A stretch of 57,892 bases of DNA, taken from NCBI GenBank assembly GCA_003565295.1, contig PXCO01000178.1, positions 1-57,892 on the forward strand, written 5' to 3'. Made by a program: the position numbers and the translations under genes. Shown in pieces: positions 41,577 to 57,814 of this stretch. This DNA comes from Cyclobacteriaceae bacterium (GTDB taxonomy: Bacteria; Bacteroidota; Bacteroidia; Cytophagales; Cyclobacteriaceae). The notes under the pieces were generated by a model. The model was not told the origin of the DNA and made no database searches. It saw nothing but the letters and a program-made list of their open reading frames with translations. Positions within the stretch are counted from its first letter, which is position 1, and each line of letters begins with the position of its first letter.

Positions 41577-42026
41577 TTAAATTAGCTCCCTTTGAGGCTC
41601 ATTCTTTTTATTGAAGCTTAATAAATTGAGTGTGGAAGTTTTTTTGTGCTCAGTACCTTGTTGCTCCGGAATATACTTTTTAAGATTTACTTCCATATCT
41701 GCCCCTGCGTCAATGGCGATTCCTGTGGAATAAACAGTGCCCCTAACTTTTGCTGTTTCGGTAAATTTTGCCAAACCACCGATGAGCATATCGCCGGTTA
41801 CTTCACCCATTACACATAACTCTCCGGCAGAAATGTTACCTATTACTTTACCGGAAGTTCCTATGATCACTTTTTTTTTGGTGCTGACATTGCCCTGTAT
41901 GTCCCCCTCTATTCTTATGTCACTTTTGGCCTCTATGTCTCCCACCACATCCAAGCCTTTGGCGAAAACTGATGTAGCATGGGCGAGATTTATCTCTTCT
42001 TGAATCTTTTTTTCTTTGGACCACAT
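41577..42026 (-). CDS. Bactofilin
   Basis: A 149-residue polymer-forming cytoskeletal protein. Seen: the bactofilin beta-helix core of short repeats (K-S-D-I-R-I-E-G-D-I-Q-G-N-V, I-G-T-S-G-K-V-I-G-N-I, L-C-V-M-G-E-V-T-G-D-M) at about 28-110. An N-terminal tail and a charged C-terminal tail flank it. Bactofilins polymerise without nucleotide and scaffold cell-shape or wall enzymes. It lies convergent to the PLP enzyme gene and stands alone, unlike the second bactofilin at 54724, which is paired with an actin-like gene. Confidence 0.92.
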   Translation of the reverse strand: MWSKEKKIQEEINLAHATSVFAKGLDVVGDIEAKSDIRIEGDIQGNVSTKKKVIIGTSGKVIGNISAGELCVMGEVTGDMLIGGLAKFTETAKVRGTVYSTGIAIDAGADMEVNLKKYIPEQQGTEHKKTSTLNLLSFNKKNEPQRELI

Positions 42027-53240: not shown

Positions 53241-54632
53241 ATGCAAAAAGGTTTGAAAAAGTCAAAAAGGGGACAATGGGGATCCACCTTTGGCTTTATT
53301 ATGGCCGCAGCAGGTTCCGCTGTGGGCTTGGGTAACATTTGGCGCTTTCCTTATATTACGGGTCAGAACGGAGGTGGAGCCTTTGTGTTTGTGTATGTCA
53401 TTTGTGTTTTATTAATAGGTCTTCCCTTGCTTCTCAATGAAATAGCAATTGGGAGGAAGTCAAGAAAAAACCCTGTAGGAGCGATCAAAGTTACGGGAGG
53501 TAACCGCTTTTGGCAAGGAGGAGGTGTCCTTTGCGTGGTGGTTTGTTTTGCCGTGTTGAGTTATTATTCAGTGATTGCGGGATGGACAATCGGATACATT
53601 TTTACAGAGTTGATTAATATTCCTGTCGATTTTGCGGTCTTTGTCCAGTCTCCTCACTATGTAATCCCACTTTGCATGATTTTTATCCTCATGACGATTG
53701 GAGTGGTTTTGGGAGGGGTTTCAGGGGGTATAGAGAAAGCGGCAAAGTTTCTGATGCCTATTCTTTTCCTCATCATTGTTTTGATTGCAGCCAGATCAGT
53801 CACCTTACCCGGTGCAAGTGCAGGTATAGAATACTACCTTTCCCCTGATTTTTCAAAAATTAATGGGAATGTAATATTATCAGCACTAGGACAGGCTTTT
53901 TTCAGCATGTCAGTGGGTTGGGGCTTGATGATCACCTTTGGAAGTTACCTGCCCAAGGAAGGCAATATCATACAGTCCTCCGGATGGATTGCAGGGATGG
54001 ACAGCATCGTTGCCCTTATGGGAGGGCTGATGATTTTTCCGGCATTGTTTGCGCTGTTGCCGGGCGAAAGTCCGGATGAAGGGCCTGCTTTGGTTTTTAA
54101 TGTGTTGCCCAGGGTTTTTGACCAAATAGACCCCTTTGGGAACATCATAGGGGCCATGTTCTTCCTATTGTTATTGGTGGCTGCATTGACATCCAGTATT
54201 TCTATGCTAGAGGTGCCTGTAGCTTACTTTATAGATGAGCGGAAATGGTCGAGGAGAAAGGCAGCTTGGATAATTGGGGCAAGTGCAATGGTTATGTCTA
54301 TTCCTTCTTCTTTGACAGCAGTTCAGGGGAATATTTTTAACCGATTAGGCTTCACATTTTTCGGAAGGCCGATTTCAGGTTTTTTCGATATGATGGATTT
54401 CTTTTTCGGCACTTTGGCAGTGGTAATTATTTGCCTTATGATGAGCCTTTATACCGGTTGGGTGAAAAAAGTAAAGGACTATGCTGATGAGTTGGCACTA
54501 GGGGCGCCTGGGTTTTCGGGGTTTCCGAAAACGGCATGGATGTTCTTCATCAAATGGATTTGTCCGGTTGTAATCATCTTGGTGTTATTGAATATGGTAG
54601 GTGTATTTGGAGATTATGGAGAAGGAGGGTAA
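53241..54632 (+). CDS. Sodium-dependent transporter, SNF family
   Basis: A 463-residue integral membrane symporter of the neurotransmitter:sodium symporter family (LeuT fold). Seen: W-G-S-T-F-G-F-I-M-A-A-A-G-S-A-V-G-L-G-N-I-W-R-F-P in the first helix (shown in parts: sodium-site G-S-A-V-G-L-G-N-I and W-R-F-P), P-L-L-L-N-E-I, and F-F-S-M-S-V-G-W-G in TM6. It takes up a small amino acid or similar with sodium. The terminator at 54662 ends the run. Confidence 0.92.
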   Translation: MQKGLKKSKRGQWGSTFGFIMAAAGSAVGLGNIWRFPYITGQNGGGAFVFVYVICVLLIGLPLLLNEIAIGRKSRKNPVGAIKVTGGNRFWQGGGVLCVVVCFAVLSYYSVIAGWTIGYIFTELINIPVDFAVFVQSPHYVIPLCMIFILMTIGVVLGGVSGGIEKAAKFLMPILFLIIVLIAARSVTLPGASAGIEYYLSPDFSKINGNVILSALGQAFFSMSVGWGLMITFGSYLPKEGNIIQSSGWIAGMDSIVALMGGLMIFPALFALLPGESPDEGPALVFNVLPRVFDQIDPFGNIIGAMFFLLLLVAALTSSISMLEVPVAYFIDERKWSRRKAAWIIGASAMVMSIPSSLTAVQGNIFNRLGFTFFGRPISGFFDMMDFFFGTLAVVIICLMMSLYTGWVKKVKDYADELALGAPGFSGFPKTAWMFFIKWICPVVIILVLLNMVGVFGDYGEGG

Positions 54633-54661
54633 CATCCTAACCTATGGACAAGCTGAAAAAT

Positions 54662-54698
54662 AAAATAAGGGAGCCGATTTAACCGGCTCCCTTATTTT
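54662..54698. terminator. Bidirectional terminator
   Basis: A 15-base perfect stem, AAAATAAGGGAGCCG / CGGCTCCCTTATTTT (54662-54676 and 54684-54698), loop of 7. The T/A-rich outer arms provide U-runs in both directions for the convergent symporter and bactofilin transcripts. Confidence 0.93.
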
Positions 54699-54723
54699 AC
54701 TAATGTTAGGGGAAAAGTAATAC

Positions 54724-55296
54724 TTACCAAGATCTGGGGAAGTTCTTGCTTAAATCGTCCGAATCGCCTTCAGAGGGAGTATTTGTGTAGGTTGACTCTT
54801 CTCTTTTCGGTTGAGATACAGGCTTAGGTTTATCTTCTAATTTATTTTTGGTCTTTTTCTCATCCAACATAGAGTAGATCTCTTCCCTGCTCACCGAATT
54901 TATTCTACTGGATTTTGACGCAGCCTTTATTGAGTCTGCATCTACTGTCTTGATCAAGCTGTTTAGCACGGCACCTTTGTGCACATAAATCTGGTTGGTG
55001 GTAATGTTGCCAGAAACCTTGGCACTGGCATATATGGTGGTTTCACCGCTAATGTAAAGGTCACCTACCACTTCCCCACTTATGCTGATTTCTTCTGCAA
55101 TGATATCGCCGGTGATGGAAGCCTGTTCTCCAACCACCACTTTCTTGTCCGTTCTGATACTGCCTACAAGGATGCCATCTGCCCGAATATCGCTCTTGGA
55201 TATAATGTCACCGGTTAGTTCAAATCCCAGTGAAAGTACAGTAACCTTACTGGCATTGGATGCATCTTCCTGCTGTTTGTTAGATCCAAATTTCAT
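54724..55296 (-). CDS. Bactofilin paired with an actin-like gene
   Basis: A 190-residue bactofilin. Residues about 20-120 form the beta-helix core (G-D-I-I-S-K-S-D-I-R-A-D-G, S-I-T-G-D-I-I-A-E-E-I, G-E-V-V-G-D-L-Y-I). It has a longer C-terminal tail than the 41577 paralogue: a helix-like S-R-E-E-I-Y-S-M-L-D-E-K and a Lys/Pro-rich, acidic tail. It starts 4 bases after the stop of the actin-like gene, so the two proteins are almost certainly coexpressed. It may be the static scaffold on which the nucleotide-dependent partner acts (inference). Confidence 0.9.
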   Translation of the reverse strand: MKFGSNKQQEDASNASKVTVLSLGFELTGDIISKSDIRADGILVGSIRTDKKVVVGEQASITGDIIAEEISISGEVVGDLYISGETTIYASAKVSGNITTNQIYVHKGAVLNSLIKTVDADSIKAASKSSRINSVSREEIYSMLDEKKTKNKLEDKPKPVSQPKREESTYTNTPSEGDSDDLSKNFPRSW

Positions 55297-55300
55297 AGGC

Positions 55301-56332
55301 CTATTCTTCTTCTTTCTCTTGTTTAAAAGTACTTATGATCGTGGAGCTGTTGCCAAGATCCAAACCAACTGCCTTGTCTTTAGCTCCGCCATTGATTGCA
55401 AGGCTGTTATAGGCATAGCCAATAGAGGCCAACTGTTCTGGGGAATCTGGCACGTGGATTTCTAAAAAACCATCAAACTCTTCCTTGAACATATTTACCA
55501 GGTCCACATAATTGGCTCCACCTCCTGCAAGGTAAAGGTCTGCCGACTTGGCGAAATCACTATCTGTAAAGGCTTTTCTTAATGAAGGGGATATGACGTC
55601 CTTGTAATATTGGGCGATCACTTGCTTCCTAAGATCTCTCAAATCTAAACGCTTCCTGTTTAGGATTATTGTTCCATCACTAAAATATTGGTCGATTTGG
55701 TGCTCTGTTTTCAGGTCCAAATAGTTGTCTTTCTGAAGCTCCCTAGTGATCAGGTTTATCGCATAGCGGATCCCAAACGTGGAAACACTGGATCTTTGGA
55801 CCAGACCACCCTCCGTACTCAAAATGGCCTCCATGGTGCCATACCCCAGACTCACCATAAAGAAGTTCTTGGGAGCATTTGGGGTCATCTGGCGAACAGC
55901 CATACTTGCACCAACTACCTCAGGGACGATGGCCACCCTGTCCACTTCTACAGCCATTTTCTTTCTTCCCCCTCCACCAAAGGTCTGAGTGTCGTATTCT
56001 ATGATATGCTCATTCTCTAATAGCCTGTATGCACTCTCTTTGAACACCTGAAAAGTGGAGAAGGGGAATCCAGTGGTAACTGTTATTGGACTGCCCAATT
56101 TTTGAGAAGCTAACAGCAGCCCTGATTTTAAAAATATCCGATAATCCACCTCATCTGGGGAACTGTTGATGTTGCGATGGGGTGAGGTTCCTTCAGAAAG
56201 GGCCAATTCACCCACTAAATACCCTACATTTTCGTGATAAATCTTCAAACCAGAGACGAGGTCCCTGGCCACATTTCTTAGTTCCAGATTGCTACTTTCC
56301 AAAACGCTGGGGTATTTTATTACTTCTATCAT
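55301..56332 (-). CDS. Actin-like ATPase (ParM/Alp type) with circularly permuted phosphate-1 motif
   Basis: A 343-residue protein of the ParM/archaeal-actin fold. Motifs in order: Y-P-S-V (7-10, normally just after the first hairpin), V-T-T-G-F-P-F (85-91), I-V-P-E-V-V-G-A (135-142), phosphate-2-like V-S-L-G-Y-G-T-M-E (160-168, Asp replaced by Ser), L-A-G-G-G-A (268-273, adenosine motif), V-P-D-S-P-E-Q (294-300), and finally A-V-G-L-D-L-G-N-S-S-T (321-331), which is the phosphate-1 motif that other actins have within the first 20 residues. An in-frame TAA five codons upstream of the ATG rules out a missed N-terminus. Thus strand order is permuted. It should bind ATP and perhaps polymerise. 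The bactofilin gene follows by 4 bases. Confidence 0.85.
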   Translation of the reverse strand: MIEVIKYPSVLESSNLELRNVARDLVSGLKIYHENVGYLVGELALSEGTSPHRNINSSPDEVDYRIFLKSGLLLASQKLGSPITVTTGFPFSTFQVFKESAYRLLENEHIIEYDTQTFGGGGRKKMAVEVDRVAIVPEVVGASMAVRQMTPNAPKNFFMVSLGYGTMEAILSTEGGLVQRSSVSTFGIRYAINLITRELQKDNYLDLKTEHQIDQYFSDGTIILNRKRLDLRDLRKQVIAQYYKDVISPSLRKAFTDSDFAKSADLYLAGGGANYVDLVNMFKEEFDGFLEIHVPDSPEQLASIGYAYNSLAINGGAKDKAVGLDLGNSSTIISTFKQEKEEE

Positions 56333-56659
56333 GGAGCTTTTTTGTTACAGATGATTTAAATTTAAAAACCTTAATCTAACTCAATACTTAAACTTACACA
56401 ACAAAATTTTTATGTTTTAAAGTATATTCCCGTTAACTCACAAAAATATACTTTTAATGTAAACTTTAATATTATTTTCAAGATTTATTGGCTGAAGGGG
56501 CAAATGATCAAATTTCTGGAGTAAGTGGTGGGTTTTGTACTATAGGCATAATAATTTTATAATAATTTAATTTTAATTTGGTCGAATCTTTGAAGAGCAC
56601 TTAATTTGTAAATTAAATCCAGGGAGGTTTCAATACGACCTCTAAATTGCATCCTAACT
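56333..56659. other. Divergent AT-rich intergenic region
   Basis: These 327 bases lie between the actin-like gene and the barrel gene. A CAAAAATA (56441-56448) is a -7 box on the minus strand for the actin-like gene, but no TTG is found at the usual distance. The plus-strand promoter lies at 56577-56608. Nothing else is seen. Confidence 0.45.
56577..56608 (+). promoter_or_regulatory. Promoter of the beta-barrel gene
   Basis: TTTG (56577-56580), 20 bases, TTAATTTG (56601-56608), one mismatch from TAnnTTTG. The spacing equals that of the DUF4293 and sugar-transferase promoters. The leader is about 46 bases. Confidence 0.5.
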
Positions 56660-57250
56660 ATGAAGAATTACCTAGCTATTGCTTTATTGATGATTACTGC
56701 TTTGCACAGCTCCGCCCAGGAGTTTTCCATAGGCCCTAAAGTGGGCATATCCCAGGGAAACCTAAGTGTAAGTGGCAATGACTTTTCTAGTACTGACAAT
56801 AAACTGGGATACCACTTGGGCCTGTTTGCCCGGTTGGGGGGGAATAGGATATTTCTCCAACCAGAAGTGTTATATACCAATACCGGAGGGGATTTCCAGC
56901 AGGACCAAGGTACTAATAATACGGTGCAATATTCCGCAAGTTTTGATAGAATTGATGTACCCCTGATCGTTGGATTAAAGTTTGCGCAATTTTTCAGGGT
57001 GATGGTTGGCCCCTCTTTAACGTTTTTGATTGATTCCTCTCTGGAAAGTGACGACCCTGCTTTTTCGGGACCCGATTACAATACCTCAACGGTGGGTTAT
57101 CAGGCAGGGATAGGTCTTGATATTGCCAATATGATATTGGATTTGAAGTATGAGGGGGCTCTGGGCAGACATGCGGAGAGTGTTGCGGGATTTCCCACCG
57201 ATCAGCGCCAAAACCAACTTATCTTATCGCTGGGTATCCGGCTTTTTTGA
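56660..57250 (+). CDS. Outer-membrane beta-barrel protein
   Basis: A 196-residue protein of the PorT-like outer-membrane barrel group. Signal peptide to A-Q-E (about residue 20). The mature part shows F-S-I-G-P-K-V-G-I-S, F-L-Q-P-E-V-L-Y-T-N-T-G, F-D-R-I-D-V-P-L-I-V-G-L-K, and ends I-L-S-L-G-I-R-L-F with the terminal Phe. Function is unknown. Its last 27 bases overlap the convergent AraC gene. Confidence 0.83.
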   Translation: MKNYLAIALLMITALHSSAQEFSIGPKVGISQGNLSVSGNDFSSTDNKLGYHLGLFARLGGNRIFLQPEVLYTNTGGDFQQDQGTNNTVQYSASFDRIDVPLIVGLKFAQFFRVMVGPSLTFLIDSSLESDDPAFSGPDYNTSTVGYQAGIGLDIANMILDLKYEGALGRHAESVAGFPTDQRQNQLILSLGIRLF

Positions 57251-57814
57251 GCCTATTTCATCGAGGTGATGCCTCGGTTTTAGGGCCAGTTTCTTATATT
57301 CGGTAGGGCTCATACCCGTGACTTTTTTGAATTGAGAGGAAAGATGCTGCACACTGCTGTATCCCAGCTTGTACGCTGATTCGCTTACGTTAAGTTCCCC
57401 GTAACTAAGCCATTCCTTTATTTTTTCCACCTTGAGACGTATGAAATATTGCTCTATGGTGATTCCCTCTACGCTGCTGAACATATGGCTCAGTTTGGAG
57501 TAATCTTCCCCCAATAAGTCCCTAACAAAAATGGATAATGAAAATTGGGCCTCAATGTCTTCCATTTGCACCTTTTCTACCAGTGCCGATTTTATTGCAG
57601 CAATTTTTTTTGATTCCTTGTCCTTGAGTATGGAAAATCCCAGCTTAAGGAGGTGCTCTTCCAACCTGTCACTTTCATCCTTGATCAACGGGTTTGTCAA
57701 AATCGCCTTTCCCAACACAACACTTTCAAAAGGTATACTGCACAGTTCCAAAATCTGCTCTACTGCCATGATGCACCTTGGGCATACCATATTCTTGATT
57801 TGCAGTTCTTTCAT
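57224..57814 (-). CDS. AraC-family regulator with HMA-like N-terminal domain
   Basis: A 196-residue protein. Residues 1-65 resemble a heavy-metal-associated domain, with M-V-C-P-R-C (C11 and C14). Residues about 100-185 form the two-helix-turn-helix AraC domain (L-S-H-M-F-S-S-V-E-G-I-T-I-E-Q-Y-F-I-R, A-Y-K-L-G-Y-S-S-V-Q-H-L-S-S-Q-F-K-K-V-T-G). It should bind DNA and respond to a metal or redox state through the Cys pair (inference). Leader repeat copy C lies directly upstream. No metal-transport gene is seen nearby within the window. Confidence 0.87.
   Translation of the reverse strand: MKELQIKNMVCPRCIMAVEQILELCSIPFESVVLGKAILTNPLIKDESDRLEEHLLKLGFSILKDKESKKIAAIKSALVEKVQMEDIEAQFSLSIFVRDLLGEDYSKLSHMFSSVEGITIEQYFIRLKVEKIKEWLSYGELNVSESAYKLGYSSVQHLSSQFKKVTGMSPTEYKKLALKPRHHLDEIGSKKPDTQR

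Follow-up and report, generated by a model that had tools for sequence, protein, structure and literature searches.

Can an actin fold be assembled from a chain that begins just after phosphate-1 and ends with the phosphate-1 loop, and what might such a protein do beside a bactofilin? The question is raised by two genes on the reverse strand of the window, by which we mean the whole stretch of 57,892 nucleotides analysed here (Cyclobacteriaceae bacterium, contig PXCO01000178.1). The first, at 55301..56332 (-, stop codon included), encodes an actin-like protein of 343 residues, and the second, at 54724..55296 (-), a protein of 190 residues in which the Pfam Bactofilin domain (PF04519) is recognized with an E-value of 1.1e-21 (77.3 bits; cut-off 27.9). 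The bactofilin ATG follows the actin stop codon after just 4 bases (55297-55300), so that the close, same-strand spacing reported by the first-pass annotation agrees with the coordinates. That annotation also held that an in-frame stop excludes a missed start, and rightly: the open frame reaches only 4 codons upstream of the ATG before it meets the stop, leaving no room for an overlooked N-terminal phosphate-1.

The gene upstream of the actin-like gene is divergent and encodes an outer-membrane beta-barrel protein, while between the bactofilin gene and a convergent transporter gene lies a hairpin with a T-rich flank (54661..54699, not assigned to a strand) with an RNA folding energy of -28.6 kcal/mol and a z-score of -8.1. 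This hairpin is probably a terminator serving both sides, notwithstanding a consensus terminator scan that listed none in 54500-56800, and with the divergent neighbour it means that the two genes probably form an operon of their own. A Bacteroidota-type promoter pattern occurs 3 times in the window, against 4.0 expected, but never at this operon, and sigma-70 matches in the window were below chance. A second bactofilin gene of the window, at 41577-42026 (-; 149 residues), has no actin partner, and the genome holds four bactofilins in all, two of them on other contigs. In an AraC-type regulator at 57224-57814 (-), Pfam lists the helix-turn-helix (HTH_18) and nothing else; its N-terminus resembles a small heavy-metal-binding segment with a C-x-x-C motif.

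Order of the nucleotide-binding motifs along the chain

The actin-like protein is predicted to adopt an actin fold with high confidence (AlphaFold2 from a 19-row alignment; pLDDT 90.7, pTM 0.90). Its chain starts with a strand at residues 2-8 (56309..56329, -) that in normal actins follows phosphate-1, and closes with a hairpin at residues 321-336 (55325..55372, -), whose strands 321-326 and 330-336 flank the loop D-L-G-N-S-S-T. The loop runs from D325 to T331, the place at the C-terminus where the first-pass annotation had put phosphate-1, and in the monomer model the hairpin closes in cis, with pLDDT blocks of 92 and 88 over residues 321-340.

Structural comparison places the missing piece at the other end of the reference chains. 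Foldseek gives Ta0583 as the top match of the model (E 9.6e-16), followed by CorM and ParMs, and VIA gives Z-scores of 26.6 to Dh-cParM1, 25.4 to CorM, 24.6 to Ta0583 and 22.5 to BeeR. In each of the 50 VIA matches listed of 986 chains, which include solved structures of actin, ParM, MamK and Hsp70, the match opens at residue 1 or 2 of the model and at residue 18-60 of the chain, so the N-terminal hairpin of the references has no counterpart at the model N-terminus; in these same 50 the match ends at model residue 313-319, leaving the model tail unmatched. In the actin fold the second of the two phosphate-1 hairpin strands is the partner of the edge strand that follows phosphate-1. When the structure was predicted a second time without residues 317-343, the sole strand to be lost was that at residues 2-8, whose pLDDT block fell from 92 to 79; such dependence is what one would expect of a hairpin that completes subdomain IA, and given the known pairing the C-terminal hairpin of the model most likely occupies the phosphate-1 place.

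Profile searches give the same picture. The Pfam model ALP_N matches residues 5-141 to profile positions 19-148 of 148 (E 1.6e-9), and MreB-like_C matches residues 163-276 with an E-value of 2.9e-5, but at 25.1 bits, below its cut-off of 27.8. Rotating the C-terminal piece to the front raised the ALP_N score in all four proteins on which this was tried: from 38.6 to 46.0 bits for the window protein, with coverage extended to 1-148, from 34.5 to 39.6 for an Ignavibacteriales homologue (L099), from 42.8 to 49.4 for L049, and from unlisted to 32.9 for L088. The best phage-library match of the unrotated protein is PHROG 691, a "partition protein" (E 2.2e-17), and here rotation raised the score from 64.2 to 69.7 bits and moved the start of the match from profile position 51 to 6. 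Searches with the single protein returned nothing meaningful from the PDB by phmmer and no match in NCBIfam, so that comparison with the PDB needed a family profile. On BiP this profile matches out of order, in pieces that are singly weak: positions 314-337 fall on chain residues 17-40 (a weak 1.9 bits), 96-177 on 146-235 (10.7 bits) and 248-287 on 334-374 (4.5 bits). Through the predicted fold, the structural alignments, the truncated prediction and the rotated-sequence matches, the circular permutation first noticed in the letters alone is borne out, and it is near certain that the chain opens with the strand which normally follows phosphate-1 and has the phosphate-1 hairpin at its C-terminus.

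Distribution of the family and its bactofilin neighbour

Counting the window's own genome, the permuted actin is carried by 5 of the 59 relatives sampled, by 48 of the 390 genomes in the taxonomic family and by 19 of the 296 in the phylum, where the single sequence and the family profile find the same 19. A scan of contigs, resting on two peptide patterns, found 98 relatives, of which the best 80 were analysed; by NCBI ranks these 80 comprise 64 Bacteroidota, 12 Balneolota, 2 Ignavibacteriota, 1 Rhodothermota and 1 unplaced. Conservation of the permutation among homologues is complete in this set: the permuted order is present in all 80 loci (best 80 of 98), as in all 19 aligned rows, each open frame holds exactly one strict phosphate-1 motif, and no D-x-G precedes the first conserved strand, where one locus (L105) is cut by its contig end. 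A looser phosphate-1 pattern adds one unrelated stretch, in L071. In 78 of these 80 loci the open frame closes 15-40 residues after the start of the motif. The other two have longer tails, which counted from the motif are 58 residues in L056 (9731-11122) and 139 in L103 (9977-11368), so the phosphate-1 hairpin is not always the chain end.

Close relatives of normal order were found in the phylum neither by the ALP_N model nor by the family profile. Across 247 genomes ALP_N matched 8, at 9 places, all of them at permuted genes and all starting at profile positions 16-21; at its threshold of E 0.001 this search missed the window's own gene, and weaker relatives of normal order might escape it likewise. 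Neither of the contrary outcomes named beforehand, a C-terminal motif misplaced in the predicted fold or homologues in normal order, appeared. Viral contigs, 72,556 plasmid records and 50,697 phage records likewise held no relative of the permuted actin. In a quick family tree, built from 47 rows after thinning at 90% identity, the branching agrees with the taxonomic orders (8 changes against a shuffled mean of 22.7), although neither Bacteroidales nor Balneolales forms a single group and two long branches come together; the agreement with the orders suggests mainly vertical inheritance and an old permutation event. Two genomes carry two permuted-actin copies each (G203, at L013 and L024; G250, at L014 and L025), and in G203 a bactofilin adjoins each copy.

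Is the pairing with a bactofilin as constant as the permutation? The first-pass annotation had asked after its conservation, and the answer is divided. Downstream of the actin-like gene, 52 of the 80 loci (best 80 of 98), from five orders, have a bactofilin gene on the same strand, by a profile that was trained on those same loci; in 48 of them the distance is no more than 300 bases, in the other 4 it is 1.0-1.2 kb. Pairing is found in 16/16 Chitinophagales, 22/23 Cytophagales, 7/12 Balneolales, 1/1 Rhodothermales, 2/2 Ignavibacteriales and 4/7 loci without an order, and in neither the single Sphingobacteriales locus (0/1) nor that of one unclassified order (0/1). The other 28 loci have no bactofilin in the stretch covered, including all 17 Bacteroidales (0/17 within the locus stretches covered), which argues against a strict partnership, although some of these loci stop near the gene (for example L054, L062 and L105) and some of the missing bactofilins may therefore be false absences. 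Pfam's own bactofilin model, run on 18 of 23 carrier genomes, finds a same-strand bactofilin no more than 1.3 kb away in 14 of the 18, as counted by hand. Some bactofilin is present in all 18, which means little, since bactofilins occur in 100 of 148 genomes of the phylum anyway. In a tree of 58 bactofilin domains, paired (38) and unpaired (20) sequences are largely separate, with 5 changes against a shuffled mean of 16.8, in a tree with many long, weak branches.

The genes surrounding the pair vary between groups. In Ignavibacteriales (L099, by Pfam M23) an M23 peptidase gene comes first, followed by those of the permuted actin, a TPR protein and the bactofilin, and two further loci from this order or a related bin (L093 and L104) have, in the same order, an M23 gene of the BLAST cluster to which that of L099 belongs; the intervening TPR gene sets the bactofilin more than 1 kb from the actin in all three. 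No M23 gene stands beside the pair in the window. In Cecembia rubra (L047) a gene of the Ignavibacteriales M23 cluster lies just past the actin-bactofilin pair, on the opposite (-) strand.

Active site and possible roles

The phosphate-2 region reads S161-L-G-Y-G-T-M-E, its S-L-G-Y-G-T stretch (residues 161-166) lying at 55835..55852 (-), and retains the Gly-x-Gly-Thr part with Ser in place of Asp. That the Asp is absent, as proposed from the sequence, is confirmed by the family profile, in which Ser161 aligns to the Asp of D-V-G in pCBH ParM and to that of D-L-G-G-G-T in Hsp70; none of 19 diverse aligned rows has Asp here (17 Ser, 1 Asn, 1 Gly). A second alignment of 80 rows, made of 79 of the best 80 of 98 relatives (L089 being dropped by the gene caller) and the window, has Ser in all 80, partly forced by a scan pattern that demanded Ser or Asn. 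Invariant in all 80 rows are G323, D325, G327, N328, E138 (codon at 55919..55921, -) and the adenosine motif G270-272 (55517..55525, -). E138 lies where we take the catalytic Glu of bacterial actins to be, and the residue of ParM that corresponds to Ser161, the phosphate-2 Asp, is presumably D170. According to PMC5539076, ParM D170A and a mutant of AlfA lose their dynamics and still form static filaments, while Alp7A D212A and AlpC D301A, termed the corresponding mutants, form no filaments at all, so that loss of the active-site Asp can also abolish polymers. For the permuted actin a static or slow polymer would be our prediction.

Of the first-pass interpretation, the computations support the permutation, its conservation, the missing phosphate-2 Asp and the recurrent bactofilin pairing; contact between the two proteins, ATP binding, polymerization and a joint two-component cytoskeleton would be predictions. 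We lean, by a little more than an even judgement, towards a chromosomal family of permuted actins in Bacteroidota and allied phyla that is slow or static and works with its own bactofilin in patterning the cell wall. On this reading the protein would bind ATP-Mg and hydrolyse it slowly or not at all, and the resulting polymers would be stable rather than dynamic. The permuted actin may then work with the neighbouring bactofilin, distinct from the other bactofilins of the genome, and the two could serve as a scaffold on which enzymes of wall remodelling are positioned, cell shape being patterned in this way. It is the M23 gene in the Ignavibacteriales cluster, taken with the known bactofilin-M23 module, that favours the cell wall as the site of action.

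The protein might instead be a permuted ASKHA switch that does not polymerize, and that through a slow nucleotide cycle recruits, caps or remodels the bactofilin polymer in the manner of FtsA, PilM or an Hsp70-type ATPase. The lack of the phosphate-2 Asp throughout the 19 diverse rows, the Hsp70 chains among the structural matches and a partner polymer that needs no nucleotide all fit such a switch, which we regard as a possibility of some substance, though a doubtful one, as the nearest folds, Ta0583, ParM and CorM, are filament formers.

A more elaborate form of cytoskeleton is unlikely: two polymers in which a hydrolysis-impaired permuted actin, its free phosphate-1 tail gated by a dedicated bactofilin, would form a static co-scaffold that sets curvature, the tail docking in cis or into the next subunit. 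Belliella, Mongoliibacter, Chitinophaga, Salinibacter and Odoribacter, none of them known to be ring-shaped, are among the carriers (best 80 of 98 relatives), and with the unpaired Bacteroidales this indicates that curvature is not the whole story; as a general explanation it is weak. Cyclobacterium, which accounts for 10 of the best 80 of 98 loci, has an adjacent bactofilin in all 10 and the closest pairs; the cells of this genus are ring- or horseshoe-shaped (PMC7232363).

Segregation of DNA by a ParM/Alp-type filament with the bactofilin as its anchor would suit the PHROG 691 "partition protein" match (E 2.2e-17) and the ParM structures among the best matches, and bactofilins of Myxococcus take part in positioning a system for chromosome segregation. 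Set against this are the absence of matches from the plasmid records, phage records and viral contigs, the lack of centromere-like direct repeats in the flanks at 56330-56660 and 54630-54726, and the lack of an evident small ParR-like gene adjoining the actin-like gene in the window. Chromosomal ParMs exist (PMC12270681), so the absence from plasmids and phages lowers a ParMRC-type reading and does no more; on balance we consider segregation improbable.

It is very improbable that the phosphate-1 hairpin docks in trans into a neighbouring subunit, so that the active site would form only in the polymer: the hairpin does follow residues 314-320 at the free end of the chain, and a monomer model is blind to the choice between cis and trans, but that model closes in cis with pLDDT blocks of 92 and 88 for residues 321-340. 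An assembly error, frameshift or decayed gene can be dismissed almost entirely, given the stop before the 4 codons preceding the ATG and the absence of any D-x-G ahead of the first conserved strand, and a broken or rearranged gene is refuted by the order shared by all 80 loci (best 80 of 98).

Comparison with known systems

Should the fold be confirmed, the protein would represent the first reported natural circular permutation in the actin fold within the literature covered: among the matches listed from open-licence PMC literature, mostly titles and the opening lines of abstracts, neither a permuted actin nor an actin-bactofilin operon was found. A confirmed fold would mean that the nucleotide site tolerates chain ends moved from before phosphate-1 to after it, and, if the permuted actin polymerizes, filament contacts would tolerate them too. 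With an actin-like protein and a nucleotide-independent polymer in one recurrent operon, a link between two kinds of cytoskeleton becomes testable, and the pair supplies candidate shape genes for the ring-shaped Cyclobacterium as well as for Chitinophaga and Salinibacter.

The nearest systems are Ta0583 and the ParM/Alp proteins (Dh-cParM1, pCBH ParM, Alp7A; ALP_N; PHROG 691), which have the fold over residues 1-318 and the adenosine motif in common with the permuted actin, the whole ALP_N profile being matched once the protein is rotated. Unlike them, it carries phosphate-1 at the C-terminus, lacks the phosphate-2 Asp, is chromosomal and often stands beside a bactofilin. CorM and BeeR, recently solved bacterial actins, also share the fold, but there the match begins at chain residue 59-60, with their phosphate-1 segment ahead of it in the usual order. 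MreB has the actin fold and MreB-like motifs in common with the permuted protein; the window's genome nevertheless encodes a separate, full MreB (424 bits), and the permuted gene is not among its three MreB_Mbl matches, this model being unlisted for the native protein at E-values up to 10 and matched weakly, below cut-off, by two homologues. From the ASKHA superfamily as a whole the permuted actin departs in the order phosphate-1, phosphate-2, adenosine along the chain.

Two further systems resemble the locus in its design. Bactofilins cluster with M23 peptidases and, together with them, direct the growth of the wall and the curvature of the cell in Hyphomonas and Rhodospirillum (PMC10945521); in this bactofilin-M23 (LmdC) morphogenesis module, as in the Ignavibacteriales loci, bactofilin and peptidase are clustered, and the cluster described here includes a permuted actin in addition. 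Natural circular permutation of a nucleotide-switch fold, with its nucleotide motifs reordered, has a precedent in the cpRAS and YlqF-type GTPases (PMC2430557), to whose fold that of actin is unrelated.
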